Below, piece after piece: positions 2,543-59,673 of a stretch of DNA of 64,000 nt (within the stretch, counting starts at the first letter, position 1; every line of letters begins with the position of its first letter). The notes under the pieces were generated by a model. The model was not told where the DNA came from, did no database searches, and saw only the letters and a program-made list of their open reading frames with translations. Position numbers and translations under genes: made by a program. Origin of the DNA: Dactylorhiza incarnata (lineage: Eukaryota > Streptophyta > Magnoliopsida > Asparagales > Orchidaceae); assembly GCA_033032865.1 (NCBI GenBank), contig JAWHQI010000068.1, positions 7,750,001 to 7,814,000 on the forward strand, read 5' to 3'.

Positions 2543-4017
2543 TGACGCGCTATTTCCACACCGCTAATTAGCGGGCACGAAATGCGGTACGACGGCAGTG
2601 CACCGGTAGTGTCAAGTAATAAAAGTAGGGAGTAGCTCCCCGAATATCGTTCTCAAAGGACCGCAAGTTGGGTAATACGATTTAATCGTTAGGAGATTAA
2701 TTATGGGGGTTTCTAAGTTTAACAAAACAAGGGGGGTTTGGTTGGTTTTATAGAACGGGAATGAGAAAACTAAACAAACTATGCGGGTCGCAATCACCGC
2801 GTCGCTTGGTGGATGGATTTAGTGCAGGCCGCGATGCCGTTCTTCGCTTAGCGGATGGCCGGTGAGCATATGGATGAGGTGAGTGCAAATGCGAGAGTTG
2901 AGGGTCGAAGGCACCTCTTCGCTAGCGCTTCCAGCTTTTGCTAGAGCGAGTACTAGATCGTGTGGGTGTAAGTGGAGCGGGGGCGGAGCGCATCACACCA
3001 CAGCATCAAGTAAAGAACACATTCATAAATAAACTCCCATTCATAGACAAACAGATGTTCACTTAGTTCATTACAACCATAAAGAGTACAAATCACAAAA
3101 AGAGAAGGGGTAGAAGTAACCACGAGATGAGAAGTCTCGCCGCAGATCTTGATCGGAATGGGGGGGTCGTCACGCCTCCACTGAGCTCAGTCCTTGGTTG
3201 CTTCCAGGGTTTAGAGGCTGTCACTACCTCTAACCGTTGCCCGTCTTCTTCTCAGAGCTGGGTCACTTCTCCTTCGCCCGATGGAGATGTCTTCCTCATG
3301 GAATGCTGGCCATAGATGGCGGAGAATGCTTCTGGAACCCTAGATGGACCTTAGGATCAATGGATGAAGCTTTCCCAAAGGGAGGAATGGAAGGGGGGAC
3401 CTTGGAGAGGTGGAACGGCGGACTCTCGCCCCAAAACAGTGCCTGATCCCTAATTTCGCAGAACACCGGCTTAAATAGGGAGCAGAATAAGTACTGCGCA
3501 CGGTCAGTGGCGCAGACCAATGGTCGTGCGCGAAGGAATGCCTGTGATCGTGCGCAGTCAACCTGTAGCAAAAAAAAAAGATAGAAAACAACGCACGGTC
3601 AGGGGCGCACGACCAGTGGTCGTGCGTGAAGAAAGGCCTGTGCTCGTGCGCCGACGCTCAATCAGGGACGGGAATTAACGCACGACCAATGGTCGTGCGC
3701 CTGATCATGCACGAAGGAATGCGCACGATCAGAGGCTTTTTAGGCCAAAAATTGCCCCGCACCATCCCGAACGTGCACACGATCCCAGGACCTATAGGAA
3801 AAACACAAATAACCCCGATCCGTGCACACCACCGGATCCATAACACAGGCATACAGTAATATATAGGAAAAACATGCCACAAAGGGGGAAGGATTGCACA
3901 AAAGGCGCAGAAACGCCATGTTATCAATATAAGCGTATATGAACAGCAATTGAAGTGCAATGATACTAAAACAAACCCAAATGAGGCCGGAAATCACTGT
4001 ATAAACCAGACTCATCA
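2543..4017 (-). repeat. F element 5' LTR
   Basis: On the minus strand this 1475-bp LTR starts TGATGAGTCTGG (4017) and ends at 2543, six bases before the primer site. It shares the LTR plan of E1, E2 and C: a terminal inverted GATGAGTC motif, GCGCACGACC-type palindromes near 3495-3730, a TATA-like TATTTAAG near 3473, and CCGCTAATTAGCGG, a perfect palindrome near the U5 end. It is the most decayed copy. The 5 bases beyond it (4018-4022, accaa) would be the target duplication, but the partner lies outside the window. Confidence 0.85.
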
Positions 4018-4249
4018 ACCAACTGAAAACACAGTCTACGTCGGAACCGTCGAAATACGCAAGAATTGGCTTAGCGAGAACGATAAAAATGCGCAGAAAT
4101 GTGATATAAACGTATGAAAATAACAAGACAGAAAAGACGAGCATAATGAACAAGGCAAAAGCAACATTTACATTTCGCATTTCTATTACAATCCATGGCG
4201 ATCTCGCCGGTCAAAAGATAAGCAAAAATAGAGATAGCAACGACTTTCA
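4018..4249. other. X element spacer downstream of gene 2
   Basis: This non-coding stretch lies between the F LTR and the end of gene 2. It carries the GCGAG/CTCGC words common in X. Nothing else was recognised. Confidence 0.4.
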
Positions 4250-4902: not shown

Positions 4903-6593
4903 TGATGAGTCCCGATTATATACACATATATGGACTCATCTGGGCCATCTATTTAGTCTTTTCACTACACTTTAGCCCTGTTTTAGCTCATATTGGTCAT
5001 TCTATGCTAGGTGCACTTATAGGCCCACTTTGGTGTGATTTTTTTGCTTATTGTCTTTAGTTGTTTTCATGCGCTGTTAAGTGCCACCTTCAGTGGCTAG
5101 ATTGGTGGTTGTGCTGGAATGGGAGTCGTGCAGGTGTTCCCGGTGCAATTCTACACAGGAACACTGCGCACGATCACCGGTTCTATTGCGCACGACCACT
5201 GGTCGTGCGCCACTGATCGTGTGCACTTAACCCTTTTTCACGAGTTCTGTTTGGTGCAGTGCGCACGACCACCAACGCCAGTGCGCACGACCACCGGTCG
5301 TGCGCCACTGCTCGTGCGCACTTATCATTGAAATTCTGAGTTCTGTTTGCTGTATTGCGCACGACCATGAACTCCAGTGCGCACGACCACCGGTCGTGCG
5401 CCACTGGTCGTGCGAATATGTTATTTTATAACTTCTGTCTTTGCAGGTTCCGTCCAGGCAGAGCGCACGATCACAGGATTCTAGTGCGCACGACCACTGG
5501 TCGTGCGCCACTGACCGTGCGCACTGTTTAATTCCAGCGCCTATAAATTCCCTGCTCGCGATTTTAGGTCATCATCCCGATTTTCAGCGCCGTTTTCCGC
5601 CCGGTTCCGCCCGATTTCGCTCCTCCACCGTCGCCCACCATATAGAGGTGCTCCGGGCTTGCTCTTCACGCCAATCTTGAGCCGGAGTTTCCTCTCGGCC
5701 TCCTCCTTCATCCAAGAGCTCCAAAGGAAGACCTAGCCGCTATCTCCATCGAGCAAGAGGAAGTTGGCAACCTCCACCGGATCGTGACACGAAGAAGACG
5801 GGTCCATTGGAGAGTCGTGACAGCTCTCTCTACCCCGGACGTAGTTGTGGACCGAGCTTGGACGCGGATTGACAACCCGGCGATTCCAACCGTGAATCTT
5901 CAACGAGCCTTCGGATTCGGTCGATTTCTTGCCTTGTTCTCCTTTTATTGATATATTTGCAACTAGATCTAACATTATGATGAAGTGTATTTTGATTAAA
6001 TAGCATTTTTACTTGATTATGTCTATGTGATTGAGTATTTTTGTTTATATTATTGAGGTGCGCCTTGTGGTGTGGTTTGTTGGTTGTCCGGTGCCGCACT
6101 AGCAATTGCTAGTGGCGTGCTTGGTGAAGAGGTGCTTGCGACCCTCAATCCGTAAGCCTACTCGCCCATCCGCCTACCGAAGCGTGGCATCGCGGCCCGT
6201 ATTCCATCCCGCCTAACGAAGCAGCGCGCTCAAGGCCTGCATAGTTCGATCCGTTTGCCTACTCGTCCATCCGCCCTTGCGACGCAGCGCGCTCAAGGCC
6301 TGCCTAGTATCCATTCCGCCAAGCGAAGCATTGCATAGCGGCATTGCATAGGAGTAGTTGTAGTGTTTTCTTTTATTTTCCAAAAGCCAACCCAACTCCC
6401 CCGCATTCCATCCGACGTTTAAGACTTCAATCTCAAGTCCTCCTCGAACGTTAACTCCACCTTACTGTGTTCCTCAAGAGATCGATACTTGGGGATTCAT
6501 TCCCATTTTATATTACTTGAACGATCGGTACACTGCCGTTTCGTGTCGCAGTCGAGCTACCGCCTATAGCGGTGTGTGAGATTTGCGCCATCA
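4903..6593 (+). repeat. E1 extra LTR, plus orientation
   Basis: This is a complete 1691-bp LTR from TGATGAGTCC to GCGCCATCA. It has an inverted repeat GATGAGTCC/GGACTCATC at its start, the palindromic U3 array at 5166-5525, a TATA box CTATAAAT at 5541-5548, roughly 60-bp direct repeats carrying GCGCGCTCAAGGCCTGC (6215-6305), and the CCGC-CTATA-GCGG hairpin near the end. No gene is in it. It forms the left arm of a near-perfect inverted repeat with 6621-8293. Confidence 0.93.
5166..5525. repeat. U3 palindrome array in the extra E1 LTR
   Basis: Units have arms GCGCACGACCA and TGGTCGTGCGC around one base (some with one arm mismatch), flanked by half-sites GCGCACGATC or its complement. The array ends about 15 bp before the TATA box. 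The same array is found in E1 LTRs at 7674-8036 and 12550-12908. Confidence 0.95.
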
Positions 6594-6620
6594 AGTTTTT
6601 GGCGCCGTTGCGAGTAATAT
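6594..6620. other. Junction of the two inverted E1 LTRs
   Basis: AGTTTT plus TGGCGCCGTTGC, the first 12 of 18 primer-site bases, follow the plus-strand LTR. Then come nine bases GAGTAATAT of unclear origin before the second LTR begins 18 bp inside its end. An LTR plus part of the tRNA-derived primer site is what plus-strand strong-stop DNA would carry. Confidence 0.85.
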
Positions 6621-8293
6621 ACACCGCTATAGGCGGTAGCTCGACTGCGACACGAAACGGCAGTGTACCGATCGTTCAAGTAATATAAAATGGGAATGAA
6701 TCCCCAAGTATCGATCTCTTGAGGAACACAGTAAGGTGGAGTTAACGTTCGAGGAGGACTTGAGATTGAAGTCTTAAACGTCGGATGGAATGCGGGGGAG
6801 TTGGGTTGGCTTTTGGAAAATAAAAGAAAACACTACAACTACTCCTATGCAATGCCGCTATGCAATGCTTCGCTTGGCGGAATGGATACTAGGCAGGCCT
6901 TGAGCGCGCTGCGTCGCAAGGGCGGATGGACGAGTAGGCAAACGGATCGAACTATGCAGGCCTTGAGCGCGCTGCTTCGTTAGGCGGGATGGAATACGGG
7001 CCGCGATGCCACGCTTCGGTAGGCGGATGGGCGAGTAGGCTTACGGATTGAGGGTCGCAAGCACCTCTTCACCAAGCACGCCACTAGCAATTGCTAGTGC
7101 GGCACCGGACAACCAACAAACCACACCACAAGGCGCACCTCAATAATATAAACAAAAATACTCAATCACATAGACATAATCAAGTAAAAATGCTATTTAA
7201 TCAAAATACACTTCATCATAATGTTAGATCTAGTTGCAAATATATCAATAAAAGGAGAACAAGGCAAGAAATCGACCGAATCCGAAGGCTCGTTGAAGAT
7301 TCACGGTTGGAATCGCCGGGTTGTCAATCCGCGTCCAAGCTCGGTCCACAACTACGTCCGGGGTAGAGAGAGCTGTCACGACTCTCCAATGGACCCGTCT
7401 TCTTCGTGTCACGATCCGGTGGAGGTTGCCAACTTCCTCTTGCTCGATGGAGATAGCGGCTAGGTCTTCCTTTGGAGCTCTTGGATGAAGGAGGAGGCCG
7501 AGAGGAAACTCCGGCTCAAGATTGGCGTGAAGAGCAAGCCCGGAGCACCTCTATATGGTGGGCGACGGTGGAGGAGCGAAATCGGGCGGAACCGGGCGGA
7601 AAACGGCGCTGAAAATCGGGATGATGACCTAAAATCGCGAGCAGGGAATTTATAGGCGCTGGAATTAAACAGTGCGCACGGTCAGTGGCGCACGACCAGT
7701 GGTCGTGCGCACTAGAATCCTGTGATCGTGCGCTCTGCCTGGACGGAACCTGCAAAGACAGAAGTTATAAAATAACATATTCGCACGACCAGTGGCGCAC
7801 GACCGGTGGTCGTGCGCACTGGAGTTCATGGTCGTGCGCAATACAGCAAACAGAACTCAGAATTTCAATGATAAGTGCGCACGAGCAGTGGCGCACGACC
7901 GGTGGTCGTGCGCACTGGCGTTGGTGGTCGTGCGCACTGCACCAAACAGAACTCGTGAAAAAGGGTTAAGTGCACACGATCAGTGGCGCACGACCAGTGG
8001 TCGTGCGCAATAGAACCGGTGATCATGCGCAGTGTTCCTGTGTAGAATTGCACCGGGAACACCTGCACGACTCCCATTCCAGCACAACCACCAATCTAGC
8101 CACTGAAGGTGGCACTTAACAGCGCATGAAAACAACTAAAGACAATAAGCAAAAAAATCACACCAAAGTGGGCCTATAAGTGCACCTAGCATAGAATGAC
8201 CAATATGAGCTAAAACAGGGCTAAAGTGTAGTGAAAAGACTAAATAGATGGCCCAGATGAGTCCATATATGTGTATATAATCGGGACTCATCA
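6621..8293 (-). repeat. E1 3' LTR (18 bp missing at its U5 end)
   Basis: It matches 11479-13169 over 1673 bp; I found only a couple of substitutions (for example at the 8031 GATCATGCGC site). The sequence just right of it (8294-8306) is the PPT region, AAGTCTGGGGGTG on the minus strand, so this is the 3' LTR of the minus-strand element. The palindromic array is at 7674-8036. Confidence 0.93.
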
Positions 8294-10018
8294 CACCCCC
8301 AGACTTACCTGTTTGCGCGTCCCGAGCAAACAAATTCTAAGCGAACGGGGAAAGAAAAGTAGATGGCTTAATGATTACACTACAGAGTACCATGCGAAGT
8401 CGCATGCTCACGTGCATAAGAAAAATAGTAGAAAAGATTTCTGATTATAAAAACAGTTTATATATTTCTAAAAGAGTAAAAGCATATTACAACTACTCAA
8501 AATGGTGAACAACGGTGAATCATTCGGTCATGCATACGGAGAAAGTAAACTAAACGCTGAGACGAGCATTGCCCAAGATCGGGATGCCGGACAAACTCCA
8601 CTGAAATCCATCAGTGTCGGTGACCATAGGCTTGCCCGGTCACATTCTCTCCACGGCACTGGTTTGACTCAAATGCGTGAATCAATAGGACTTTAGGTTT
8701 TAAATGGGGCTTGGGTTTAGGTGAGGTATACAATGATAAAGACGATGGTTCAAATACTAAACCCAAATGAGCAAATGCATAACATTATCCAAGTGGCCAC
8801 AAAACACGCGGATGCACCACACCCCCAGACTTAGACTTAGACGCATGGGTGTGTGCACCGCCTACTCCCAAATATAAATCTCAAACAGATTTTTTTCAAT
8901 TAAACTTTTCATTCTTTTTTTTTCTTTTCAAATCTTTTTCTTCTTTTCTTTATCTTTCTTTAACAATTTCAGCAACTTTTCAAAGATGCACAACCACATT
9001 TTCACAATGTACTACCACAATCAACACCACCAATTTGAAATTGAAACAAAATGCTTGCTTTTTGGGTGTGCGACTAGGATTGGAGTTTAGGCTTTGGTGA
9101 ACAATAGTGGGGCTGAACCAAAAGAATGGGGTAGGCACAATTGGGCTAGCGAGGAAATGATGATAGGAATGGCACAAAGGCTCAACTGGGCCAAGATGAT
9201 GGCCTATATCACATTCACGCAATTGACTAACCGTATACCCATGCTTCAAGAATCGCTTGGGGCAAGTTCTAGCCACCGAGAAAGATTCTCCTTTCTCCCG
9301 ACTCAAGCAATACGAATCTAGCGATCGTTTACACACATCCCTACGCTACCGTTTGATTCACACCAGATTCACCATTTGAGTAGAGTAAACAACATTTACA
9401 CGAATAGAAAAAAAAATATAAAACCATAAGTATAAAGAGAAGTCTAATCTACACAAATTTTTATGCAACCGAGCACTCGACTAGGAGCACTACTAGAGTC
9501 AACATTTTACTCTGCTACATAATCCTAAGCCATCACCTAGATTTTCCCAAATAAGCAGAAGAATTAAATTCACTACAGAGCACGCATACAGACGAGTACG
9601 CGCTCAAGTGGGTGCTGTGGTGTGCAATGAAAATAAACAAAACATTTTAAAAGAAATCTTCTAGTATGCAGTGCAATAGTGCACGTGAGCGGGTAAACAA
9701 AACTACTCTCCCCCAGACTTAAACTAAACAATCCACAGAATATATGACATGAAAATCAGAAAAAGCTAGGGAAAGAGAGTACCCAGTGCTCAGAAATGAG
9801 CACACCAGAAGATTGGCGTTTAAATCACGACTAAGCTGCAGCATCCGCCATCCAGAAAAAGATGCCTGCAGGGGTCAGCTCCGCAAAAAGAAAATAGAAA
9901 ACTGAAAAAAGAAACACTACTAACTAAACACGATTAGAAGAAATAAAAATGCAGAAAAGAAAGATAACTACTGGGGTTATTGTCATCCCAGCACGACTTA
10001 TTCTAAAATAAAACAGTT
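8294..10018 (-). other. E1 non-coding 3' internal region
   Basis: This holds no gene. On the minus strand, in order from gag: a stem-loop CTGGG...CCCAG near 9966-9992; a pyrimidine tract ending CCCCTGCAG near 9875-9900 that resembles a 3' splice site; the hairpin TGCTCA-TTTC-TGAGCA (9787-9802); PPT-like boxes AAGTCTGGGGG near 9711-9722, 8820-8831 and 8296-8306; and an A/G-rich tract complementary to 8888-8965. The same blocks recur in E2, C and D, so selection on RNA or cDNA signals is likely. Confidence 0.7.
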
Positions 10019-11257
10019 CTAGCTAATGGGCCTATGGAAGGAGAAGTGGACAGGTAACTGGCCTAATATCCGTGTCGGTAGCGGGTACCGATACGGTGAT
10101 AGAACAGTCACGCCTCTACCTGAATATAAATACCTGCTCCTCACAGGTAGAGGGAAAAGAAAGTAAGAAGAGGAGGAGGCCTGGTCCTCACTCATCTTAC
10201 CAAAACTATCCTTGCCCAGCAAGGTATCGTCTGCAGCAGGTCCGCAGGGGGAGAAGGCAATGAGTGGAGCTTCCTCTACGGAGGGGGAATAAACCTCCTC
10301 ACATGAGAGGATGCTCTCATCATTGACTTGAGCAAAACGCTCCAAGTCCTCCTGAAGTACCTGTGAAGATTCAACCTGCACAGACTCAGATGAAGGAAGG
10401 GGATCAAGAATTAAAGAAGACGAAGAACATAAATAAACATCAATCGGGGGAGTGATCCCGGTCCCACTCCCATCAGGTTGGGGAAGTAAAATAATATTAG
10501 CATTGTCATCAATGCTACAAGATTCGGCGGGATCAATGGTGGCCAGGCTTAGGATTTGGACTTCCTCCACCGGTGTTGAGGAAAACTCCTCTTCACCTAG
10601 AAGGTTGTCCTCCTCCATAGGAGTAGGCACAACACTAAGATCAACAGCCTCCTCTTGGGACACATCATCAACAATGTCGTCGGAGACGAATGTAGTATGC
10701 ACAACAGGGGGAGGAATAGTGCTCGGATAAAAGTCGAGCACCGATTCCTCACAAAGAATCGAATCCACTAGAGGTGGTGGATGCACTGGGAGAATGGGCT
10801 CAGCAATATCGGTGCCCAGATCAGCCACACATCTGGTGACTGTGTCAACGCCATACCCTTCAAGATGTGAAGGTGGCAAAGACACAAAACCGGATTTTGA
10901 AGGTGTGCCGCCAGAGTTAGGATTCGGGATGATCCGGATATCCGGCTCATCATCCTCATCCAATTGGCGACGAAAAGCAGCACAATCCTTCAGGGCATGG
11001 TCTGTGCTCCGATAAAACTGGCACTGCCTAGCGGGCTTCTTTGGCACAGCGGGGGCTGGAGCCGAAAAGAAGTAAGACGGTAATGGCTCAGCAGAGTAGC
11101 CATAAGACTTACGCGCACCATATGGAGTATCAGACGGAGTCGATGCTCTATATGCTGGGCGAGAAGAATTATGCCTACTATTCTCCGTAGGGCATTCATC
11201 ACTAGAGTGGGAGGTAGCTCCACACCAACGGCAACGGAAATTGAGATGTGCCCACAT
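10019..11257 (-). CDS. E1 gag-like double zinc-knuckle protein
   Basis: This 412-residue protein is the only coding capacity of E1. The start is the ATG of MWAHLNFRCRWC, conserved in E2, C and F. Zinc knuckle 1 is C9-C12-H17-C22 at the very N-terminus. Knuckle 2 is C79-(Y82)-H87-C92, where the second Cys has become Tyr; E2 keeps Cys. A QLDEDDEPDIR segment follows, then a long acidic, low-complexity middle, and a conserved C-terminus (GVTVLSPYRYPLP, then HFSFHRPIS). No capsid-like domain, protease, RT or integrase was recognised. Nucleic-acid binding is inferred from the knuckles. Conservation across four element families suggests it is used, perhaps with pol supplied in trans. Confidence 0.75.
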   Translation of the reverse strand: MWAHLNFRCRWCGATSHSSDECPTENSRHNSSRPAYRASTPSDTPYGARKSYGYSAEPLPSYFFSAPAPAVPKKPARQCQFYRSTDHALKDCAAFRRQLDEDDEPDIRIIPNPNSGGTPSKSGFVSLPPSHLEGYGVDTVTRCVADLGTDIAEPILPVHPPPLVDSILCEESVLDFYPSTIPPPVVHTTFVSDDIVDDVSQEEAVDLSVVPTPMEEDNLLGEEEFSSTPVEEVQILSLATIDPAESCSIDDNANIILLPQPDGSGTGITPPIDVYLCSSSSLILDPLPSSESVQVESSQVLQEDLERFAQVNDESILSCEEVYSPSVEEAPLIAFSPCGPAADDTLLGKDSFGKMSEDQASSSSYFLFPLPVRSRYLYSGRGVTVLSPYRYPLPTRILGQLPVHFSFHRPIS

Positions 11258-11454
11258 AGTGCGAAGATAATACGATTCAGAATAAAAGTGCTATTGTGCA
11301 AAATACTACACCTGACAAAAATTACTAAAGCAACCTAATTAAAACAGGAAAAAGGAATAAAAAGACAGAAATAAAAAAATAAAAGATGCAATTTACAAAT
11401 GAAAAGGGCTTCTCTCTCAGATTCTCCCTCTCCAGAAAACTCACACGACTGTGT
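11258..11454 (-). other. E1 untranslated leader
   Basis: This leader lies between the primer site and the gag ATG. It carries TCTGGAGAGGGAGAATCTGA on the minus strand just after the primer site, also present in E2 at the same place. It is probably transcribed and may hold packaging signals; none can be demonstrated. Confidence 0.5.
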
Positions 11455-11472
11455 TCCCCGGCAACGGCGCCA
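11455..11472 (-). promoter_or_regulatory. E1 primer binding site, tRNA-Asp
   Basis: The minus strand reads TGGCGCCGTTGCCGGGGA, the full 18-nt complement of plant tRNA-Asp(GTC) including CCA. It is typical of Athila/Tat-group elements. It is separated from the LTR by AGTTTT (11473-11478). Confidence 0.93.
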
Positions 11473-11478
11473 AAAACT

Positions 11479-13169
11479 TGATGGCGCAAATCTCACACAC
11501 CGCTATAGGCGGTAGCTCGACTGCGACACGAAACGGCAGTGTACCGATCGTTCAAGTAATATAAAATGGGAATGAATCCCCAAGTATCGATCTCTTGAGG
11601 AACACAGTAAGGTGGAGTTAACGTTCGAGGAGGACTTGAGATTGAAGTCTTAAACGTCGGATGGAATGCGGGGGAGTTGGGTTGGCTTTTGGAAAATAAA
11701 AGAAAACACTACAACTACTCCTATGCAATGCCGCTATGCAATGCTTCGCTTGGCGGAATGGATACTAGGCAGGCCTTGAGCGCGCTGCGTCGCAAGGGCG
11801 GATGGACGAGTAGGCAAACGGATCGAACTATGCAGGCCTTGAGCGCGCTGCTTCGTTAGGCGGGATGGAATACGGGCCGCGATGCCACGCTTCGGTAGGC
11901 GGATGGGCGAGTAGGCTTACGGATTGAGGGTCGCAAGCACCTCTTCACCAAGCACGCCACTAGCAATTGCTAGTGCGGCACCGGACAACCAACAAACCAC
12001 ACCACAAGGCGCACCTCAATAATATAAACAAAAATACTCAATCACATAGACATAATCAAGTAAAAATGCTATTTAATCAAAATACACTTCATCATAATGT
12101 TAGATCTAGTTGCAAATATATCAATAAAAGGAGAACAAGGCAAGAAATCGACCGAATCCGAAGGCTCGTTGAAGATTCACGGTTGGAATCGCCGGGTTGT
12201 CAATCCGCGTCCAAGCTCGGTCCACAACTACGTCCGGGGTAGAGAGAGCTGTCACGACTCTCCAATGGACCCGTCTTCTTCGTGTCACGATCCGGTGGAG
12301 GTTGCCAACTTCCTCTTGCTCGATGGAGATAGCGGCTAGGTCTTCCTTTGGAGCTCTTGGATGAAGGAGGAGGCCGAGAGGAAACTCCGGCTCAAGATTG
12401 GCGTGAAGAGCAAGCCCGGAGCACCTCTATATGGTGGGCGACGGTGGAGGAGCGAAATCGGGCGGAACCGGGCGGAAAACGGCGCTGAAAATCGGGATGA
12501 TGACCTAAAATCGCGAGCAGGGAATTTATAGGCGCTGGAATTAAACAGTGCGCACGGTCAGTGGCGCACGACCAGTGGTCGTGCGCACTAGAATCCTGTG
12601 ATCGTGCGCTCTGCCTGGACGGAACCTGCAAAGACAGAAGTTATAAAATAACATATTCGCACGACCAGTGGCGCACGACCGGTGGTCGTGCGCACTGGAG
12701 TTCATGGTCGTGCGCAATACAGCAAACAGAACTCAGAATTTCAATGATAATTGCGCACGAGCAGTGGCGCACGACCGGTGGTCGTGCGCACTGGCGTTGG
12801 TGGTCGTGCGCACTGCACCAAACAGAACTCGTGAAAAAGGGTTAAGTGCACACGATCAGTGGCGCACGACCAGTGGTCGTGCGCAATAGAACCGGTGATC
12901 GTGCGCAGTGTTCCTGTGTAGAATTGCACCGGGAACACCTGCACGACTCCCATTCCAGCACAACCACCAATCTAGCCACTGAAGGTGGCACTTAACAGCG
13001 CATGAAAACAACTAAAGACAATAAGCAAAAAAATCACACCAAAGTGGGCCTATAAGTGCACCTAGCATAGAATGACCAATATGAGCTAAAACAGGGCTAA
13101 AGTGTAGTGAAAAGACTAAATAGATGGCCCAGATGAGTCCATATATGTGTATATAATCGGGACTCATCA
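11479..13169 (-). repeat. E1 5' LTR
   Basis: This is a complete 1691-bp LTR with its TGATGAGTCC end at 13169 and its GCGCCATCA end at 11479. The U3 palindromic array is at 12550-12908 and the TATA box (TATAAATT on the minus strand) is near 12524-12531. It is nearly identical to the other two E1 LTRs; one visible private change is ATTGCGC for AGTGCGC near 12751. Confidence 0.93.
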
Positions 13170-20675: not shown

Positions 20676-20691
20676 CGAATATATAAAAGTT

Positions 20692-44436: not shown

Positions 44437-44442
44437 AGTTTT

Positions 44443-44460
44443 TGGCGCCATAGCCGGGGA
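44443..44460 (+). promoter_or_regulatory. C primer binding site, mutated tRNA-Asp type
   Basis: TGGCGCCATAGCCGGGGA, two changes from the intact site of E1 and E2. It follows AGTTTT after the LTR. The leader (44461-44655) to the gag ATG is non-coding. Confidence 0.85.
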
Positions 44461-44655
44461 AGACAGACGTGTGAGTTTTTTGGAGAGGGAGACGAGAGGT
44501 AGAAGCCCTCCCATTTGTAAATTGCGTCGTTTATTTTTATTTCAGTTCTTTTTATTCTATTTTCCTGTTTTTAAATAGGTTGTTTAGTAAATTACTGTTA
44601 GGTGTAACAGTTTGCACGATAGTGTCTTTATTGTGAAGCTTGCTATCTCCATATA

Positions 44656-44896
44656 ATGTGGGCTGCATTTAATATTCGTTGCCGTTTATGTGGAGATATT
44701 TCTCACGCTAGTGATAGATGCCCTACGGAAGATGGTGGGCATAATTCTCGTGGCCCGGTGTACGGAGCACCATTTTCCTATGGTTCTTCATGCCCTGTGC
44801 CCAAGTCTTATGGCCACTCGTCCTCGACGCATACACCATTTTTACATTCCTCCCCGGCCCCTCAAGGACCAAGGAGTAATATAAAATGGTGCTTGT
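44656..44896 (+). pseudogene. C gag-like protein, N-terminal part (cut by J)
   Basis: The start ATG is at 44656 (MWAAFNIRCRLC). The first knuckle is C9-C12-H17-C22. The frame reaches the first Cys of the second knuckle, where J is inserted with duplication cttgt (44892-44896). The remainder is at 53831 onward; the frame is continuous when J and one duplication copy are left out. Confidence 0.85.
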
Positions 44897-46875: not shown

Positions 46876-46939
46876 ACTCCACCCCCCTTAAAAGAATTTC
46901 GTCCCGAAATTTATAAAACAGAAATAGCAAGAAATTCAG

Positions 46940-49384: not shown

Positions 49385-49456
49385 CGTGAACTCATAGTGC
49401 CCAAAGCGGGTACTGAATGCTGTTTTTGGAATGTCACATTCCCTTATCCGCAGTTG

Positions 49457-50325
49457 TTAATAGCCGGACCTTAGGTCCAGCTTGGAGTAAACCGTCGACC
49501 CCACCAATTGGTCGAATAGATCATCGATTCTTGGAATCGGATATCGGTTCTTCTCGGTCAACTTGTTTAGCTCTCGATAATCAATACATAGACGCAAGCT
49601 CCCGTCCTTCTTTTTCACAAAGAGGACCGGTGCACTCCAAGGCGATGAACTTGGACGTACGTAGCCTTGCTCTAGCAGCTCTTGCAATTGAACCTTCAGC
49701 TCTGCCAATTCCTTTGGCGTTATCCGGTACGGTGAGCGGGCCACAGGTTTGGCACCTGGCACCAACTCGATACGGAAATCGATCTCCCGCTGAGGCGGAG
49801 CCCCAGGGAGTTCGTTAGGAAACACATCGGCGTACTCCGCTACAACTGGGACATCACATAACCTGGGCATTGGCTCTGAAGTCTCCAACAAGGTGAAGAA
49901 CAACTCGGCGCCTTTTCTCACCGCCTTAACCACCTGGAGAGCAGACATCAGCGTCTTGCTCGCTCCTCGCATACCGGCGAACATGGTTTCTCCTTCGGTG
50001 TCCCTTCCCAGAGTGATCTCCTTTGTATTGCAATCTATGCATGCCCGCTGCTCCGAGAGCCAGTCCATGCCGAAGATCACATCAAATTCAGCTAACGGTA
50101 ATAACGACGCTTCCAAGTCGAAATCCTGACATCCGATCCGCACCTTCACACGGCTCTTCCTATCCGCACTCATTCGAGATCCATTGGGTAGCACTACTTC
50201 CAATCTATCCTCTACGAAGGTAGACGGCACTCCGATTCGCACAACGAAGTCCTCGGACAGAAAAGAGTGCGATGCACCCGTATCAAATAGAGCTCTCGCC
50301 GGATAGTTGAAAATTAGGACGAAAC
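49457..50325 (-). CDS. pol: J pol: protease and N-terminal RT
   Basis: After an 83-bp intron the frame reads protease [20 protein letters not shown] with the catalytic [13 protein letters not shown], then a linker ([16 protein letters not shown]) and RT start ([49 protein letters not shown]). It ends at a TAA (49454-49456) where related elements have His; the same frame continues after the stop into 49384. Thus a single stop codon splits RT. The exon start follows from the intron acceptor ATTAG at 50326-50330. Confidence 0.93.
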
Positions 50326-50408
50326 CTAATTGCACGCAAATAAAGCATATAGTCGTACCACAGTATGAATTATATATATAGCTGAAAAAGCTAACTTCTA
50401 ATTCGTAC
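50326..50408 (-). other. Likely spliceosomal intron in J gag-pol
   Basis: 83 bp, AT-rich. The exon ends ACAG before GTACGA; the intron ends GCAATTAG before GTTTCG. Unspliced, the frame hits TAG three codons in (VVTGTN then stop). Spliced, it continues [17 protein letters not shown], matching the usual gag-to-protease link of this lineage. Length and composition fit plant introns. Confidence 0.75.
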
Positions 50409-51618
50409 CTGTGACGACATCAGTTTGTCGTATAGCTTCTTGTTGGCCAAGCGAATAGACTCTCGGCTGAGTCGGAATGTGCTGGGAAGCCGAAGACTCC
50501 GCAGCTTTACCCTTTTCGGCAGCACGAGCATAATCCACCGCTCGAATACCAGCCTTCGGGGGACCACTTCGACACACCGCAGCTTTGTGTCCCACCTTCC
50601 CGCAGGTGAAACACGTAATAGGAGTCCGCGCGGTCGTGGCTCCCAAAACATTTGAAGGAGCTGGTTCCGCCTGTTTGAACTTCCTTTTGTTCCTTCTGAA
50701 ATCCGACTTGGACTGAGAGGCCGGCGCATGAAACTCAGGTTTCTTTACAACACCCCTTGCTTATACCCTCTTCATGTCCAACTCCAAAGATCTGGCAGTT
50801 TGCACCATCACTTGGAAGCCAAACGTCATAGGGCCTGCAAGGAGCAGCCTCAACTCGTCCCGAAGACCTTCATAGAACTTACTTGTCTTTGTCTCCTCAT
50901 CCTCCACCAAGGACCCTGCATAGCGACTCAGTCTGGTAAACTCATGCAAGTAATCGTCAACGGAGTGATCACCTTGTGTCAACCTCAAGAACTGGTTTTG
51001 CAACGCAATGCGCTGGGCAGAGGGGATAAACCTTTGGAGGAACGACTTTGAAAACTCAGCCATTGTAATTTCAGTAATATCTCTACCGCAGAACTTATGC
51101 AGCTCCTGCTCTTCCCACCACAGCACAGCCTCTCCATCAAGAAGGAAAGTGGCTAAGGTGACCATCATGGCTTCGTCCGTCGCTGTCGCCCTCAGAGTTC
51201 TTCTAACTCTTGACAACCAGTCTTCTGCCTCCGTTGGGGACTCAGATCCCGAGAAGGTAGGAGGATTAAAGCTCAGGAAATGCTTTAATTGCTGGTCATG
51301 CGCTCGCCCCGCAACTACTTGCGTAACTTGAGGTTCCACCCTCGGCGCTACCGCAGGTTCTACTGCAGCTACAGGCACAGGGGCCTCCACCCTTGGTTCC
51401 GCCCCAGGTTCCACTGCAGCAATAGCCTCAGTGGCCACATCCGGAGTAGGAGTAGCAGGCTGGACTAGCCTTTGGGGTTGTGCGTTGATCATCGCAAAGG
51501 CCGCTTCTGCGACTAATTTGATCATTTCAGCAGAAGGAGTGGTCGCTGGCACTTCAGCCGACCCACTACTTTCAGCAGTGTTACGGGGTCGAGACTGCCC
51601 CGCAGCACTTCTAGTCAC
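50409..51618 (-). pseudogene. gag: J gag with in-frame TAA, and zinc knuckle
   Basis: The ATG at 51618 (MTRSAAGQSRPRN) starts a Pro/Ala/Val/Glu-rich N-terminus, then the retrotransposon gag domain (FLSFNPPTFSGSESPTEAED, ALQNQFLRLTQGDHSVDDYL, KFYEGLRDELRLLLAG). A TAA at 50758-50760 follows LELDMKRV. The same frame goes on to the CCHC knuckle CFTCGKVGHKAAVC, then QTDVVTG at the intron donor. The TAA could be a point mutation or a programmed stop; I favour mutation because a second stop is present in RT. Confidence 0.88.
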
Positions 51619-51844
51619 CTATAATCATGCAAAGCACAATTTAGTGAGCCAAAACATATCAAACATCATTCATGGGACGCTCAGGTTCCGCAAACAAGTA
51701 TGTTTTCTTTTCATTCCTAAGTGGACATTCTTATTAGTTTTTGTCGTTTTAGGTGAATGCACAACCCGTGCGCACCACCCCTTAAAAGGAATTCGTCCCG
51801 AATTCGCTGAACTACGGATCGACGCCTTAAGTCCGATACCAAAT
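51619..51844 (-). promoter_or_regulatory. J leader and primer binding site
   Basis: The minus strand has TGGTATCGGAC (51831-51841) three bases from the LTR end. It resembles the initiator-Met site TGGTATCAGAGC but with changes; another tRNA could be the primer. The rest of the leader is non-coding. Confidence 0.6.
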
Positions 51845-53825
51845 TGTAACACCCTGCCAGTACAGATAGTATAATAGTAAGTCCGGCCGGGACCCCACGC
51901 CATACAAACCACACTAGCTAGGAGTTAAAAGGTCATAAACAGAAAAGTAACAACTAAACGAGAGTACAACACGTAAGCGGAAGCATTAATTAAACCATTC
52001 AAATAGAACTGTCCACTATCATAGGAATGTATCCTGAATAAGAGTTACGGCCTTAAGGCCTTACATTCATCCAATGCACAAAACTCCAAAAGCATACATC
52101 GGCACGCAGGCCGGCCATACATGAATAACAGGAAAAGGGCTGGCCTTCGAGGGCCAACATTGCAAAGGGCTATCGCCCGCTATTTCCCGCTAGGCTCACC
52201 GGCACCTGCATAAGAACATTCCACCAAGCGGTGGCAAACAAAGTAACGGTCAGCACAGCTGACCAAATTATAACGACCCCACCCCTTTTCCGGGGCGGCG
52301 GAGCTTCTACCCTGCAAGCAAGCCATACTAGCACAAGTACTAAATATAAAGAAAGTGCAAACTACACAAGGTGAGGTTTCAAGCACAATCAATCTTCTAG
52401 GTTGAGCATCAAAAGAGAGGGGAACCTAGGTATGCACATGATGTTGGTTGGGTTCACCCGAAGGTTCCCCACAACCGCCTAAGCAATTGCAAGAGGCTAA
52501 TCATAACATCCATTTCACAAAACACTCCACCGTAAGGGCCACAACCTTGGGTGGAAACAAGAGCTTTTGGTCGGTCTAGGTATGACACCTTCCACGACCT
52601 CTCCCATGATCACACGGCTTTCCTGAGGAAGGGACCTCTTACCGATCTGCATGGAAACGGGTTCGGTTTAGCTTTGCCCGTGCTCTAATCGTCGCGATCT
52701 ATCGCACGACGCGGGTACGGCTTCGCCTCGGCCCGTAAGGGTTTAGCACTTTCAAGTGCTACACTAATTATACGCTACGCACCTAACCCCTTCACAAGGG
52801 TCTAGGTTTCACGAATACTCAACAAGGGAGGTGCAATACGCTCCGCATCAATTTCGTGGTGAAGGTTTGCCTTCAACCAAACTCAAAGCATGGGGCTTTC
52901 GTTAGCATCTTCACAAGACGCCTATACTTATTTCCCGCATTACTATAGATGATTTCACGGAGTCATTCTCCGGCACGCATTCTAGGCCTAACCTAAATGC
53001 AACGTCGCAAATCAAGCATCACCGATTCGGGCTCACGGCCACGAATAGGCTTCACACAAAATGCCTAAATCCGCACGACAACCGGATTTTCTACATGCAA
53101 TAATGCCGGGGACGGACACAATCTACCCGGAGTTCCGAAGAACTTGAGGAAATCCTACACTTCACCCATTTGGTGAAAGGGATTCCTCATGCAAGCATAG
53201 AAAGAGCAATGAAAGGACAAATACAAGTCCAAAGTTCGGGAGGAAGAATCGTTACCCTAGTCGCGTTCTTTTTCGCCATAGATCTGAGATTCTACACGGA
53301 GAGAAACGACCGCACCGGGCTGCACTCTCCAAATCTGGAAACGGCTCGCGAAACCGAGCTCCGGAGCTCCGTCAATGGCGGGATCTACCTTCTTCTTCCT
53401 TGGCTCCTCCTTCTTTCTCTAGGGTTTGGAGAGAGAATGGCTTAGAGAATATGAGGGTTTAACCCCCTCTCATCAGCCCTAAAGGTCTCCCGCAACTAAA
53501 CCTAGCCGTTGGATCAATTTCCAAAAGATTTGGACGGTCCGATCTTCTTCTCCGCTCAAAATCGCGGAACAGAATAAACAGGGCGCACGATCGCTGGCGC
53601 ACGATCACTGGTCGTGCGCGAAGAGGGAAATGGTCGTGCGCACTGTCCGAGACAGAACTCGATTCTCTTCTGAATTAACGCACGATTGCTGGCGCACTAT
53701 CACTGGTCGTGTGCGAAGAGGGAAATGGCCATGCGCTAAGAGCAGAAAGGGAAGATTTAGCCTGCTTCAAGTGCAGCACTACCACTCCGCCTACTTCGCT
53801 GAACCATGATTTTTGGGGTGTTACA
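51845..53825 (-). repeat. J 5' LTR
   Basis: 1981 bp, nearly identical to 44897-46875. Palindrome units are at 53580-53740, with more changes here than in the other copy. No gene. Confidence 0.93.
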
Positions 53826-53830
53826 CTTGT

Positions 53831-54836
53831 TCTGTCAAAGCATGGATCACGCCCTGAAGGACTGTTCCGAGTATCTTCGCCAATTGGACGAGGATGATGA
53901 GCCGGATATCCGGATCGTCCCGAGTCCTACTTCCGGCAGCACACCTTCAACATCTGTTTATGTGTCCGTGTCACCTTCATCTTGTGAATGGTATGATGTG
54001 GACACAGTCACCAGATGCGTGGCTGATCTAGGCTCTGACAGGGCCGAGCCTATCTCCCCCATGCATCCATCATCTAGCGTAGATTTGATTCTCTGTGAGG
54101 AATCAGTGCTTGACTTTCATCCAAGCACCATTCCTTCCCCTGTTGTGCATTCTACTATGCTCATCTCCGACGACATTGTTGATGATGTGTCGCAAGATGA
54201 GGCTGGCGATCTATGTATTGTGCCTACTCCTATGGAGGAGGACAACCTTTTAGGTGAAGAGGAGCTTTCCTCAGCACCGGTGGAGGAAGTCCAAATCCCA
54301 GGCATGGCCCTTGTTGATCCCGCCGAGCCTTGTAGCATTGATGACAATGCAAACATTATTTTACTTTCCCAACCTGTTGGGAATGAGTCTGGGACCACTC
54401 CTCCGCTTGATTGTTATTTATGTTCTTCTTCTCTTTTATTTCTTGACCCCCTTTCTTCTATATCTGAGCCTGTGCAGGTTGAGTTTTCGCAGGTACTACA
54501 GGAGGACTTGGAGCATTCTGCTAAAGTCAATGATGAGTGTATCCTGTCATGTGAGGAGGTTGACCCCCCTCCATAGAGGAAGCCTCATTCATTGCCTTTT
54601 CCTCCTGCTGTCGCCCTGAAGACGATACCTTGCTAGGCAAGGATTTATTTTGTGGTGAGATGAGTGAGGACCAGGCCTCCTCCTCTTCTTATTTCCTATT
54701 TCCTCTACCTGTGCTGCGCAAGTATTATTATACAGGTAGAGGGGTAACTGTTTTATCGCCGTATCGGTACCGGCCACCGAAACGGATAATGGAACAGTTA
54801 CCCGTGCACTTTTTATTCCATAGGCCTATAAGCTAG
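53831..54836 (+). pseudogene. C gag-like protein, C-terminal part
   Basis: It resumes inside the second zinc knuckle (QSMDHALKDC), then DEDDEPDIRIVPSPTSG, an acidic middle, and a stop after CEEVDPPP near 54577. A frameshift around 54570 puts the conserved end (EDQASSSSYFLFP, GVTVLSPYRY, HFLFHRPIS) in another frame, closing at 54836. With 44656-44896 it forms the C counterpart of the E1 and E2 proteins. It is broken by J and by the frameshift. Confidence 0.82.
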
Positions 54837-56573
54837 AGCTGTACAAATGCCAAATAAGTCGTGCTGGGAAGACAATAACCCCAGTACTTATCTTAATTTT
54901 CTTGCATTGTATTTTTCGTTAAGTATAATAGTTAGTTAAATTTCAATTCAGTTTTAGCTTTTCTATTTTCTTTTTGTTTTTGCGGAGCTTACCCCTGCAG
55001 GACATTCCTATGGAAGGCGGTGGTCGTGATTCTTCGTATGGCGGAGGTGCGGCCTGGTCATACGCGTCTTCTGGTATGCTCACTTGCTGAGCATTGGGTA
55101 CCCTCTTCCCCTAAATTTGTTTTAGAATATCTTAATGCATAGTTTAAGTCCGGGGGAGAGTAGTTGTGTTTACCCGCTCACATGCACACTGCATATGCAT
55201 ACTCGAAGCTTTTATTGATTTATTTTGATCAGATCATTGCAACACACACCACTTGCACCCACTTGAGCGTATGCTTAGCTGTTTGCGTGCCGCAAGTTAA
55301 ACTCACTTCGTGAGTAAGGTTCGGGCAAATCATTGTGCTGGCCTTTAAATTATATAGTGAAGTAATATGTTGACTCCGGTGTTCCTAGTCTAATGCTTTT
55401 GTGAGCATGGAGATTTGTGTAGATTAGATTCCTTTTTATACTATTAGTCTTATACATTTCTATTAGTATAAATAATGTTTGCTCTACTCAAATGGTGAAT
55501 CCGGTTGGAATCAAAAGGTAGTATACGGGTGTGTGTAAATTATCGCTAGACGTGTATTGCTTGTGCCGGGAGGAATGATAACCTTTCTCGGTGACTAAGA
55601 ACTCGCCCCAAGCGATTCTTGAAACATTGGCATTGGATAATTCTGTTGCGCAAGAATGACGTAGGCCATCATTTTGGCCCGGTTGAGCTTTTGTGCCAAT
55701 CTTAATATCTAATCCTCGTTAGCCCATTTGTGCCTACCCCATCCCTTTGATTCAGCCCCACATTTTATTCCACCCAAAACCAAATATGCCGATCCTAGTC
55801 ACATACCCAAAGCTGAGCTTTAGCTGTTTTCAAATTTGTATTTTGGAATGTTGCTGTGGTGATGTTAAACTTGGAGATGTGGTTGTACTCCCTTGAACAT
55901 TTGCTGAATTTAAAAAATATATAATTAGAAAAAGAAATGAAAAAAAAAAGAAAAAAATGAGAAGGAGTTTAATTGAAAATCTCTTTGAGATATGTATTTT
56001 GGAGTAGGCGGTGCACATACCCACGCGTGCAAATCCAAGTCTGAGGGTGTGGTGCATCCGCGTATTTTTGTTGCTGCGGGGATAGAGTTATTGTTTAAGC
56101 TCATTTGGGTTAGGTGCTTTAAGCCATCCTGTTTATCATTGTTTACCTCACCGTAACCCAAGCCCCATGAAAAACCTGAAGTCCTACCGACTCACGCACT
56201 AAACTAATCTAGTGCTGTGGAGAGAATGTGACCGGGCGAGCGTATGGTCACGAACCCGTTGGATTTCGGTGGAGTTTGTCCCAAACCCCAGCTTGGGAAA
56301 TGCTCATCTCAGCGTGTATTTTACTTTCTCCGTATGCGTGACCGATTGACTCACCGTGATTCACCTTTATGAGTAGTAGTTATATTTATTTACTCCATTA
56401 GAAATATATAAACTATGTGAATAATTAGAAACCCTATCTACTATTTCTCTATGCACTTGAGCATGCGACTTCGCATGGTACTCCTCGATGTAATTTTAAG
56501 CTAGCTATTTATTTTTCCCCGCCTGCTTTGGATGTGTTTGCTCGGGACGTGCAAACAGGTAAGTCTGGGGGTG
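54837..56573 (+). other. C non-coding 3' internal region
   Basis: No gene. Conserved blocks in sense order: stem CTGGG...CCCAG (54860-54885); pyrimidine tract ending CCCCTGCAG (54950-55000); hairpin TGCTCA-CTTGC-TGAGCA (55077-55093); box AAGTCCGGGGG (about 55146); GCCCCAAGCGATTCTTGA (about 55605); A/G tract (55915-55975); box AAGTCTGAGGGTG (about 56037); and the true PPT AAGTCTGGGGGTG (56561-56573) abutting the LTR. Confidence 0.7.
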
Positions 56574-58065
56574 TGATGAGTCCAGTTTATATAGTGAATT
56601 CCGGACTCATCTGGGCTAGTTTTCATGCACATGCACTTCACTTTAGGCCTATATTCAATTCTATTTGATCACGTTGCCCATTTCATTGCTTAGTGCACAT
56701 TTATGCCCATCTTGGTGTGATTTCATGTATTTCTGTGGTCTAGTATATTTTCATGCAGGTCCAAGGGTTGTGCGACACTCGGGATGGGTTCTGGGGGATT
56801 TTCGGTCGAAAAAGCCACTGGTCGTGCGTTTTCCTTCTCGCACGACCAGGCGCACGACCATTGGTCATGCGTTAATTCTCGTCCCTGAATGAGCCCTGAT
56901 TGAGCGACAGCGCACGATCATTGGCCTTCTTCGCGCACGACCACTGGTCGTGCGCCACTGACCGTGCGATTTTGTGCAGATCTGGCTATGCTACAGGTTC
57001 TTCGCGCACGATCAGAGGAATTTCTTCGCGCACGACCATTGGTCGTGCGCCGTTGACCGTGCGCGTTGTTTATTTCTGCTCCGCCTATAAATAGAAAGAC
57101 GCGATTTTAAGTCGGGGATCACTGCCAGACCGTCGTTTTCTGCCTATTTCGGGGGGCTCCGACTCCTCCAGCGCCGCCCACCTTAGGGAGGATCTCCGGG
57201 CAAGCTTTCAACGCCAAATCTTCGCCGGAGCTTCCTCTCGGCCATCTCCTTCCTCCAAGAGCTTCAAGAAGGGAGTCAACCTAGCCTTCTTCTTCAAGAT
57301 TGGAGCAGCTTGTGATCATTCCTCCGGTTCGTGACACGAAGAAGACGGGTCCACTGGAAGGTAGTGACAGCCTACTCTACCACGGACGCAGTTGAGGACC
57401 GAGCTTGGACGCGGATTGACAACCCTACGATTCCTTCCGTGAATCCTCAACAAGACTTCGGAGTCGGTCGATTTCGCACACTCACCTCCTCTTATAGTTG
57501 ATAGTTTAGTTGGATTTCTTATATGTTTGACGAAGTATACTTTTATTTGTTAACATTAGTATGAAATCATGTCTATGTGATTGAGTAATCTTGTTATATT
57601 TTCATTTGAGGTGTGCCATGTGGTGTGGATTGTTTGTTGTGTTGTGCCGCCCTAACAATTGTTAGTGGTGTGCTTTGCGAAGAGGTGCTTGCGACCCTCA
57701 TTCCGCCGCTCTCACCACCCCATCCGCTAGCCTACTCGTCCATCCGCCTAGCGATTTGGTGCATTGCGGCCCGTGTAGCCTTCCATCCCGCCTGGCGAAG
57801 CAGTGCGCTCAAGGCCTGCATAGGAGTAGTCGTAGCTATTTTATTTTGTTTTCCGCAATCCAAACCAAGCCTCCCACAATCCATCCGACCTTAAGGATTT
57901 CAATCTCAAGTCCTCCTCATTAGTCAACCCCACCTTACTGTGTTCCTTCCGAGATCGATACTTGGGGATTCATTCCCATTTTATATTACTTGAACGATCG
58001 GTACACTACCGTTTCGTGCCGCAGTCGAGCTACCGCCTATAGCGGTGAGCGAGATTTGTGCATCA
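56574..58065 (+). repeat. C 3' LTR
   Basis: 1492 bp, same length as the 5' copy with scattered substitutions (more than between the J LTRs). Palindromes are at 56768-57066, the TATA box TATAAATAG at 57086-57094. The palindromes here are better preserved than in the 5' LTR. No gene. Confidence 0.95.
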
Positions 58066-59673
58066 ATTTTCTCGGGACGAGCAAATGGTTAAGTCTGGGG
58101 GTGTGATGAGTCCCATTTATATACACTTTTATGGACTCATCCGGGCTAGTTTTCACTCTTGTGCACATCCGTTTCGAGCTATTATTGCTAATATATCTCT
58201 TATACACACTTGCACGCACATACGTGCTTTGTGCTCTATTCAGGCCCATTTTGGTGTGCGTTTGCGCTCCATCTTGTTGGGGGTAAGCACATGGCGCTCC
58301 CCAATCCTTTTTATATGATTAGTTGGTGCTGGAAGTGTATTCTCAGCTGGATTGCTATTCTTGCAGGTGGTTGAATCATCCTATTTTGCCCAGAAATCAT
58401 GATCGTTAATATCGCACGATCGTGCGTTTTCCTTGACGCACAGATGGCTGTGGTCGTGCGCCTTCTTCTGGGTAGAAAAATGTTGATCTGACTTTGTTTG
58501 TGCATTTTTACGCATGGGCAGTTGCCCGTGCGCGAAGGAAACGCACGATCGCCTGTTTTGCCTGGTTTTTAGCCAATCTGGTTTTGGTCGTGCGTTTTAC
58601 GCACGGGAGGCTTCGACCGTGCATGAGTAAACACATGGGCACTGCTGCTTCTTCCTCAAGGCATTTCATTTCGTTAAATAATGCACGGGAAACGCATGGT
58701 CGTGCGTTCGACCGTGCGTGACTAATTTCTGCTGTTTTAGTATTTCAAGTAGGAAATCTTCTGCTGGAAAAAGAGACCCGCGAGAAAAACTCTGGATGCC
58801 CGCCATTTCCGCCCATTTTGCATCTCCATCACCGCCTGACCTAGGAGGATCTCCGACAACCTGTCCTGCAAATCTTCTGCCAAAGTCTCTCCTTGGCCTC
58901 CTCCATCATCTACGAGTTCAAGAACGCCATCGACGGAAGATTTCTGCTACATTCAAGGGATCTCCAATAAGAGTAGCTGGAGCTAGACCACGAAGAAGAC
59001 GGGTAAACTAGAGGAAGGTGACATCTCCTCTGTACCCCGGACGCAATTGAAGACCGAGCATGGACGAGGCTTGACAGCCCTGCGATTCCGGTCGCGAATC
59101 TTCAGCATAGTCTTCGACCTTCGGTGACCTCTTTCCCTTTTGTGTATAGTTTAGGATTTTTTCATGGTATGATGTTCTTTCCTACGGATGATGTTCATAA
59201 CTGTGTTTATGTTATTGTGATTTCATTTCGGTGAAATGTGTTGTGGTTTATGAGATTTGAGGAGCGCCCTAGTCCGCCATCCACTCCACCGTTCTATAGA
59301 GCGCCGCACTAGCAATTGTTAGCTGCGTGTTCCGCGACGAGGTGCCTACGACCCTCATTCCGCTGGTTACAAAACATCCATCTGCTAGCCTTCTCGTCCA
59401 CCCGCTCACTGAAGCACGACATCGCAGCCTGCATTCCATCCTGAGTCCCGACAAGCGAAGCGGAGCTCTAGGCCCGCATTTTCTTTCACTGTTGCTAATC
59501 TAGGGAAACCAAAATCAAAACACCCCTTTTTATTAATTACATAAGAATCTATATAAGTAGTTCCATAACAAGAATTCATACAACCCAACTTGCAGTCCTC
59601 TGAGAATGATATTCGGGGAGTCTCTCCCAATTTTACTACTTGAACGACCAGTGCACTTGCCATAATTGCATCA
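58066..59673 (+). repeat. D 3' end: PPT and 3' LTR
   Basis: The last internal bases carry AAGTCTGGGGGTG (58091-58103). The LTR runs from TGATGAGTCC (58104) to TTGCATCA (59673), 1570 bp, with the same GATGAGTCC/GGACTCATC start repeat. Degenerate palindrome arms are scattered at 58413-58720. Its U5 is diverged from C and E1. No 5' LTR of D is in the window. No gene. Confidence 0.82.

Follow-up and report, generated by a model that had tools for sequence, protein, structure and literature searches.

Why should several retrotransposons in one stretch of an orchid genome carry the same short palindromes, arranged in arrays, in the promoter part of their long terminal repeats (LTRs), and why should an element of another lineage carry them too? 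The stretch is a 64-kb window of Dactylorhiza incarnata DNA (contig JAWHQI010000068.1, positions 7,750,001 to 7,814,000), and all counts, comparisons and families given here come from that window. The arrays stand in the U3 (unique 3') region of the LTRs of elements that we call F, E1, E2, C and J, and in degenerate form in a further element, D. The original prediction, made from the sequence alone, took them for a regulatory module shared by unrelated LTR families. The reading that we favour, with a probability of about 0.6, is that the array would be a selected, promoter-proximal enhancer, read by a protein, which at least one foreign element has acquired.

Palindrome arrays and the four-site module

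At up to three mismatches the window contains 32 copies of the palindrome GCGCACGACCA-N-TGGTCGTGCGC, and 100 dinucleotide shuffles gave none. Thirty of the 32 lie in LTR U3 regions (two in F, 12 in the three near-identical LTR copies of E1, seven in the E2 LTRs, six in C and three in J) and the remaining two stand in an internal promoter of E2. The half-site GCGCACGATC is found 112 times at up to one mismatch where 2.7 copies would be expected in the window, and only two of these lie outside the arrays, at 3775, still within the U3 of F, and at 48927, in the pol gene of J. By alignment the half-site consensus is GCGCACGAYC. A copia-type block at about 28-42 kb contains no palindrome and so serves as a small built-in negative, and a search of viral_contigs with the palindrome and LTR-start patterns gave no match.

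The true unit of the array is larger than the palindrome. Read in the sense of the element it is directional, and consists of a forward half-site, 12-14 bp, a second forward half-site, 3 bp, a reversed half-site, 4 bp and a second reversed half-site, with the inner pair making up the 23-bp palindrome. Such modules account for most of the sites that F, E1, E2, C and J carry. A search for four sites, each with no more than two mismatches and the first two 10-16 bp apart, gave 27 modules at spacings of 3 and 4 bp, while 78 of the 79 alternative spacing combinations gave none and the other gave one, which is a J module with a 2-bp deletion. E1 contributes 12 of the 27 (in three LTR copies), E2 seven, C four, J three and F one; counted for one LTR per element, E1 and E2 have four each, C and J two each and F one. 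The second module of F is damaged, D has none, and C and F each carry a palindrome outside the modules. The pitch of the modules is about 95 bp, although one step measures 106-107 bp in both E1 and E2. The palindrome spacings of 33, 73, 83, 95, 96 and 107 bp cluster near multiples of a 10.5-bp helical turn (p 0.004-0.014 by Monte Carlo). This fixed four-site geometry is an addition to the earlier description, whose array coordinates, including the degenerate state of D, held on re-scanning:

3495..3730, minus strand: F array in U3; intact module 3591-3651, damaged module nearer the TATA box 3496-3555, extra palindrome 3678-3700
5166..5522, plus strand: E1 array in an inverted extra LTR; four modules
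7674..8030, minus strand: E1 array in the 3' LTR; four modules
12550..12906, minus strand: E1 array in the 5' LTR; four modules, TATAAATT 19 bp past the last half-site
16459..16816, minus strand: E2 array in the 3' LTR; four modules, TATTTATT 18 bp past the last half-site
20401..20481, minus strand: E2 internal promoter; palindromes 20459-20481 and 20426-20448, then TATAAAAA at 20408-20401
23033..23294, minus strand: E2 array in the 5' LTR; three modules against the four of the 3' LTR
43160..43435, plus strand: C array in the 5' LTR; two modules and an upstream palindrome, TATAAATA 21 bp past the last half-site
46635..46786, minus strand: J array in the 3' LTR; two modules, one with a palindrome centre 2 bp shorter
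53583..53736, minus strand: J array in the 5' LTR; two modules, of which the upstream carries mutations
56790..57064, plus strand: C array in the 3' LTR; two modules and an upstream palindrome, TATAAATA 21 bp past the last half-site
58104..58780, plus strand: D LTR start and U3; scattered half-sites, no module

The arrays of E1, E2 and C had been described as ending close upstream of the TATA box, and the measured distances bear this out, with a TATA-like word starting 19, 18 and 21 bp past the last half-site respectively; in F the word TATTTAAG starts at 18 bp. The same arrangement recurs inside E2, where an array had been placed upstream of the second open reading frame (ORF) at 20312-20490. 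Two palindromes are found there, followed 17 bp past the last half-site by a second TATA-like word, TATAAAAA, which itself precedes the start codon of the second ORF (ATG at 20237) by about 160-170 bp; three looser half-sites lie downstream of this TATA-like word. These internal palindromes and the second TATA probably drive the second ORF.

Conservation of the half-sites

An element inserts with two identical LTRs, and later differences between them therefore represent unconstrained change against which differences between families can be set. Between the members of such LTR pairs we counted 11/440 differences in half-sites, 9/607 in spacers and 47/5553 in the rest of the LTR (site versus rest p 0.003). 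The comparison between families, which took E1, E2 and C and left out F, D and J versus the others, reverses this order, the half-sites being the slowest class between families and the fastest within pairs. E1 and E2 differ at 4/160 half-site positions, 35/194 spacer positions and 177/1116 positions of the LTR outside the array; for C and E1 the values are 9/132, 39/134 and 193/1124, and for C and E2 15/139, 41/130 and 212/1039. In McDonald-Kreitman-like tables of between-family against within-pair differences, sites depart from the rest with p values of 5e-5, 0.0009 and 0.008 for E1-E2, C-E1 and C-E2, and from spacers with p values of 0.0004, 0.007 and 0.03.

Conservation of the half-sites is thus selection-like, and since the spacers diverge at or above the rate of the LTR, it is not accounted for by modules being homogenised as units. 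The contrast also holds when CpG columns alone are taken for E1 and E2 (2/69 in half-sites versus 29/150 outside). The observed/expected CpG ratio is 1.31-1.41 in the arrays and 0.89-1.16 in those parts of the LTR with which they were compared. Of the 14 changes that half-sites, by a slightly wider definition, have undergone since insertion, 11 fall in CpG columns. A CpG-dense silencing target had been offered as an alternative function; the arrays are indeed CpG-rich and their changes fit methylation as a consequence, but we do not favour silencing as the main role.

The Athila-like lineage and the origin of the J array

The elements that carry the arrays, and the ORFs referred to below, are the following (TSD, target-site duplication):

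4903..13169, minus strand: E1 insertion; 5' LTR 11479-13169, 3' LTR about 6621-8293, outer TSD ATGGT
10019..11257, minus strand: zinc-knuckle ORF, E1 copy
15527..23555, minus strand: E2 element; 3' LTR 15527-17077, 5' LTR 22100-23555, TSD ACGGT
18969..20237, minus strand: second ORF of E2, 422 amino acids
20692..21924, minus strand: zinc-knuckle ORF, E2 copy
42945..58065, plus strand: C element, with J inside; TSD ATTTT
44897..53825, minus strand: J, a gypsy element of presumed chromovirus type, inserted in C; LTRs 44897-46875 and 51845-53825, TSD CTTGT

F, E1, E2, C and D have the LTR start TGATGAGTC(C/T) in common, and parts of their R-U5 (repeat and unique 5') regions align at about 60-85%. 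The polypurine tract GTCTGGGGGTG stands beside E1, E2, C and D, and related copies of a protein with zinc-knuckle spacing (judged by eye) are encoded by F, E1, E2 and C. E1 and E2 further carry the primer-binding-site-like sequence TGGCGCCGTTGCCGGGGA, with variants in C and F, which we take to be of the tRNA-Asp type. On these common features we reject the idea of unrelated families: the five are related, and only J crosses lineages. We take F, E1, E2, C and D as one Athila-like, apparently non-autonomous lineage. The tRNA-Asp and Athila labels are in part our own assumption and in part lean on PMC6317226, according to which non-chromoviruses use Asp tRNA among others.

The ORFs scanned in these five elements contain neither a pol domain nor a copia domain. 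The zinc-knuckle ORF has no Pfam match, six weak and uninformative matches in the PDB (E 0.74-0.77) and 14 pattern matches in viral_contigs of which none was confirmed, and the C-terminal half of its E1 copy is 48% identical to a protein of the orchid Platanthera guangdongensis. The second ORF of E2 matches the Pfam ATHILA ORF-1 family weakly (E 0.0024, 17.2 bits, below the cut-off of 20.2). It has no homologue among 7994 scored proteins, no PDB match at E 1 and no other copy within the window, and its single-sequence fold prediction is unusable (mean pLDDT, predicted local distance difference test, 37.8). The Athila ORF-1 domain is reported in 16% of Athila elements (PMC6317226).

J had been assigned to a different lineage by its pol, and this assignment stands. 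Pfam identifies gag, protease, reverse transcriptase, RNase H and integrase, with protease, reverse transcriptase, RNase H and integrase in gypsy order, and the best match of the protein among the best 120 of 7968 relatives is from Platanthera zijinensis (79%). The LTR starts with TGTAACACCCC and is accompanied by the primer-binding-site-like TTGGTATCGGAC, presumably near the tRNA-Met type; LTR ends and priming site both differ from those of the Athila-like lineage. The chromovirus/Tekay label is our assumption, from the LTR start and the C-terminus. J gave no Pfam Chromo match at E 0.1, though among the best 120 relatives listed P0011, P0017 and P0023 carry a chromodomain (PF00385). The two LTRs of J are 99% identical, and J has no further ORF of at least 200 amino acids beside its gag-pol frames.

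How, then, did J come by its array? The original prediction had noticed that the linker word GACAGAACTCG is common to E2 and J, and linker shuffles back the sharing as real: compared with the first linkers of E1 and E2, none of 2000 base shuffles matched the J linker as well, compared with the other E1 and E2 linkers 1-135 of 2000 did, and with the C and F linkers there was no match (517-808 of 2000 as good). The 58-bp flank past the J array was as well matched in dinucleotide-block shuffles none of 2000 times for E2, once for C2, 3 times for C1, 26 times for E1 and 46 times for F. Aligned to C, the flank leaves a gap across the TATA stretch, and aligned to E2 its TGTTTATT falls on the TATA word. 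Because of these linker and flank matches we regard the J array as homologous, not convergent, and as older than the present insertion. The modules of the J 5' LTR are 0.90 identical to each other and 0.66-0.83 identical to all modules of C, E1, E2 and F. A recent local conversion from C to J was considered and rejected, as the J modules are at most 0.83 like any other while the J LTRs are 99% alike. The original reading was to be refuted if the motif were confined to one family plus J by such a conversion; in the window the motif is confined to one lineage plus J, with recent conversion unlikely. The spread by recombination between families proposed earlier survives in a narrower form, in which the J array would have arisen by descent or recombination rather than convergence and only J crosses lineages. 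The array's presence throughout the other lineage suggests that the transfer ran from an Athila-like element to J.

Several structural observations accompany these elements. E1 contains, within one pair of ATGGT TSDs, an extra inverted copy of its 5' LTR and the start of the primer-binding site at 4903-6611, which looks like an autointegration or palindromic reverse-transcription product. The E2 LTRs, with three modules (5') versus four (3') at otherwise high identity, have lost or gained a whole unit. The LTR start TGATGAGTCC of E1, E2, C and D has the inverted GGACTCATC within the next 40 bp (starts at 4903, 13169, 23555, 56574 and 58104), and F differs. This resembles a hammerhead core word; the hammerhead idea was dropped, the window having no Rfam match at the gathering threshold. 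Between 42945 and 58104 lies a three-level nest, with J in C and C close to the polypurine tract and 3' LTR of D. Elsewhere, the block at 27846-42457, which has no palindromes, is AT-rich, contains two diverged copia-type gag regions (Retrotran_gag_2) and in self-comparison resembles a large tandem duplication. A minus-strand frame at 13656-14174 matches Pfam Transposase_28 (E 1.1e-4, 22.8 bits, below the cut-off of 26.2), a domain reported from antisense ORFs of Retand elements (PMC11963269).

Proposed mechanism, rival explanations and precedents

The proposal of a shared regulatory module in U3 gains support from the geometry, the placement before the TATA box and the conservation. As half-sites and spacings are kept and spacers are not, the module is a putative protein-read site, which lends indirect support to the dimer-type site suggested earlier. 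Each module would most probably be occupied by a dimeric (or tetrameric) protein that binds DNA sequence-specifically and, with the last module about 20 bp before the TATA box, would help to start transcription of the genomic RNA. The U3 of J would earlier have received modules together with some flanking promoter sequence from an Athila-like member, by template switching during reverse transcription or by gene conversion, and J would thereby have come under the control of the same protein. We favour a host factor as the reader, since J has no further long ORF of its own. The CGTGCG inside the half-site resembles a brassinosteroid-response (BZR-type) core.

A number of points weigh against a selected enhancer that was passed to J. 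The faster post-insertion change of half-sites is largely a matter of CpG content (in C, CpG columns changed at 5/54 in half-sites versus 10/131 outside), and the post-insertion counts are small, with 11 site changes of which 9 are in C and J. A column was taken as part of a site if either sequence resembled the consensus there, the same elements recur among the three comparisons between families, and in C the spacer class includes half-sites that lie outside its two modules. The positional identity of E1 and E2 modules is only partial: from E1, modules m1, m2 and m4 but not m3 find their best E2 match at the same position, and from E2 only m4 does so clearly, m1 and m2 being ties and m3 matching elsewhere. 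A 12-bp period fits the six palindrome spacings nearly as well as 10.5 bp, and some of these spacings depend on one another. D belongs to the lineage yet lacks a module. J has no TATA at the homologous place, only TTTATT 4 bp past the last half-site, and its transfer rests on one insertion with two LTR copies.

Could the reader be encoded by the transposons themselves? The second ORF of E2 or the zinc-knuckle ORF might supply a protein that reads the array as an activator or anti-silencing factor, with J profiting in trans. The motifs are dense and arrayed, palindromes stand before one candidate reader ORF, and the VANC proteins of VANDAL elements provide a precedent (PMC5735166, PMC10398659). 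Against this, neither ORF has a Pfam DNA-binding domain or an informative PDB match, the predicted fold of the second ORF is of no use and the ORF is single-copy in the window, and the VANC21 motifs, unlike those seen here, are described as arrayed in one orientation (PMC5735166). We consider a transposon-encoded reader unlikely. Distinctly unlikely, in our view, is a wider proposal, that a portable four-site operator served by one trans-acting factor, possibly transposon-encoded, crossed from the Athila-like to the chromovirus-type lineage and wired the two, which differ in LTR ends and priming sites, into one transcriptional regulon.

The palindromes might instead act as RNA, with U3 hairpins feeding small-RNA production and silencing and the DNA sites having no positive role. 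The array of the E2 3' LTR does fold far better than shuffles (z -10.2; 0/100 as good), and Sirevirus palindrome clusters of maize attract small RNAs (Bousios 2016, cited in PMC10760457). A purely harmful hairpin should not be kept, yet the half-sites are conserved, and neither the TATA placement nor the internal promoter is explained; these two features favour a protein-read DNA site over RNA. Co-variation of the arms, a check proposed with the original prediction, gave a weak test: among 15 distinct of 16 palindromes given (the window has 32), 91.5% of cells are paired and none of 11 pairs has changed on both sides, but shuffles would lead one to expect only 0.8, and four pairs never vary. 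We regard silencing by hairpins alone as improbable, and a hairpin may be a cost alongside the enhancer role. Little probability likewise attaches to a neutral tandem repeat, homogenised by slippage and gene conversion, that reached J by chance. Slippage does occur, as the differing module number of the E2 LTRs indicates, and for several E1 and E2 modules a module at another position is at least as good a match as the counterpart; but spacers diverge at or above the LTR rate and half-sites do not, the spacing is invariant, and the motif reappears at a second promoter. That J gained sites for the same host factor independently is very improbable. Both J modules share a spacer of their own, TTTCCCTCTTC, and are the most distant of all, but the shared linker words, the same module direction, the 95-bp pitch and the flank matches speak against a convergent array. 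We return to the selected, protein-read enhancer as the favoured reading.

Among open-licence papers, a search for palindromic repeated motifs near the TATA box of plant gypsy LTRs returned only PMC2829016, on Sireviruses, and a search with sequence words of the motif returned nothing on plant retrotransposons by title and abstract. Sirevirus RM boxes are palindromic, high-copy and CpG-rich, are clustered in the upper LTR shortly before the TATA box, and have extra copies upstream of the second ORF (ENV), taken there as support for an internal promoter. The arrays described here are closely similar in build, being palindromic and CpG-rich, clustering before the LTR TATA (in F, E1, E2 and C, not in J) and having copies before a second ORF, at 20426-20481 in E2, where that ORF is weakly Athila-ORF1-like. 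They differ in the core, which is CGG-CCG in all RM boxes but that of Tnd-1 and is absent from the half-site GCGCACGAYC, and in their hosts, which are Ty1/copia there and Ty3/gypsy-type here (J with gypsy-order pol, the others without a copia domain in the ORFs scanned). The RM boxes are moreover listed as single palindromes, with no fixed four-site module in the available part of PMC2829016, whereas here four sites stand at fixed spacing and occur in a second lineage too. The maize Sirevirus palindromes lie in the cis-region of the LTR and fold strongly, as here, and the same palindrome is reported as the commonest motif in structured regions of Helitrons, so that sharing across classes is not unheard of (PMC10760457).

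Other systems match parts of the picture. VANC target arrays are dense, noncoding and gained or lost by tandem repeat formation, like those here, but belong to DNA transposons, have one-orientation YAGTATTAY motifs and a transposon-encoded reader (PMC5735166). In the wheat elements RLG_Wilma, Sabrina and WHAM, non-autonomous gypsy elements share with their partners little more than some essential motifs, and the authors hold that the regulatory sequence of LTRs must co-evolve and that gene conversion or template switching could transfer it (PMC9744471); those are mobilisation partners, however, and J, with other LTR ends and another priming site, is not expected to mobilise the others. The recombinant centromeric retrotransposons of grasses exchanged parts of LTRs, as proposed for J, and yielded prolific recombinants, but within one family rather than between an Athila-like lineage and a chromovirus-type element (PMC4079200). 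VANC arrays, wheat LTR co-evolution with possible transfer, and grass LTR exchange are each a precedent for a single step.

Palindromic promoter arrays were known from copia Sireviruses, where the 2010 paper left their function to experiment (PMC2829016). The present arrays add another motif, gypsy-type elements, a strict spacing, a copy in a foreign lineage and a post-insertion control that separates decay from selection, and together these make the question testable, including whether J underwent a burst after it had captured the array. The sequences suggest a promoter switch able to pass between transposon families.

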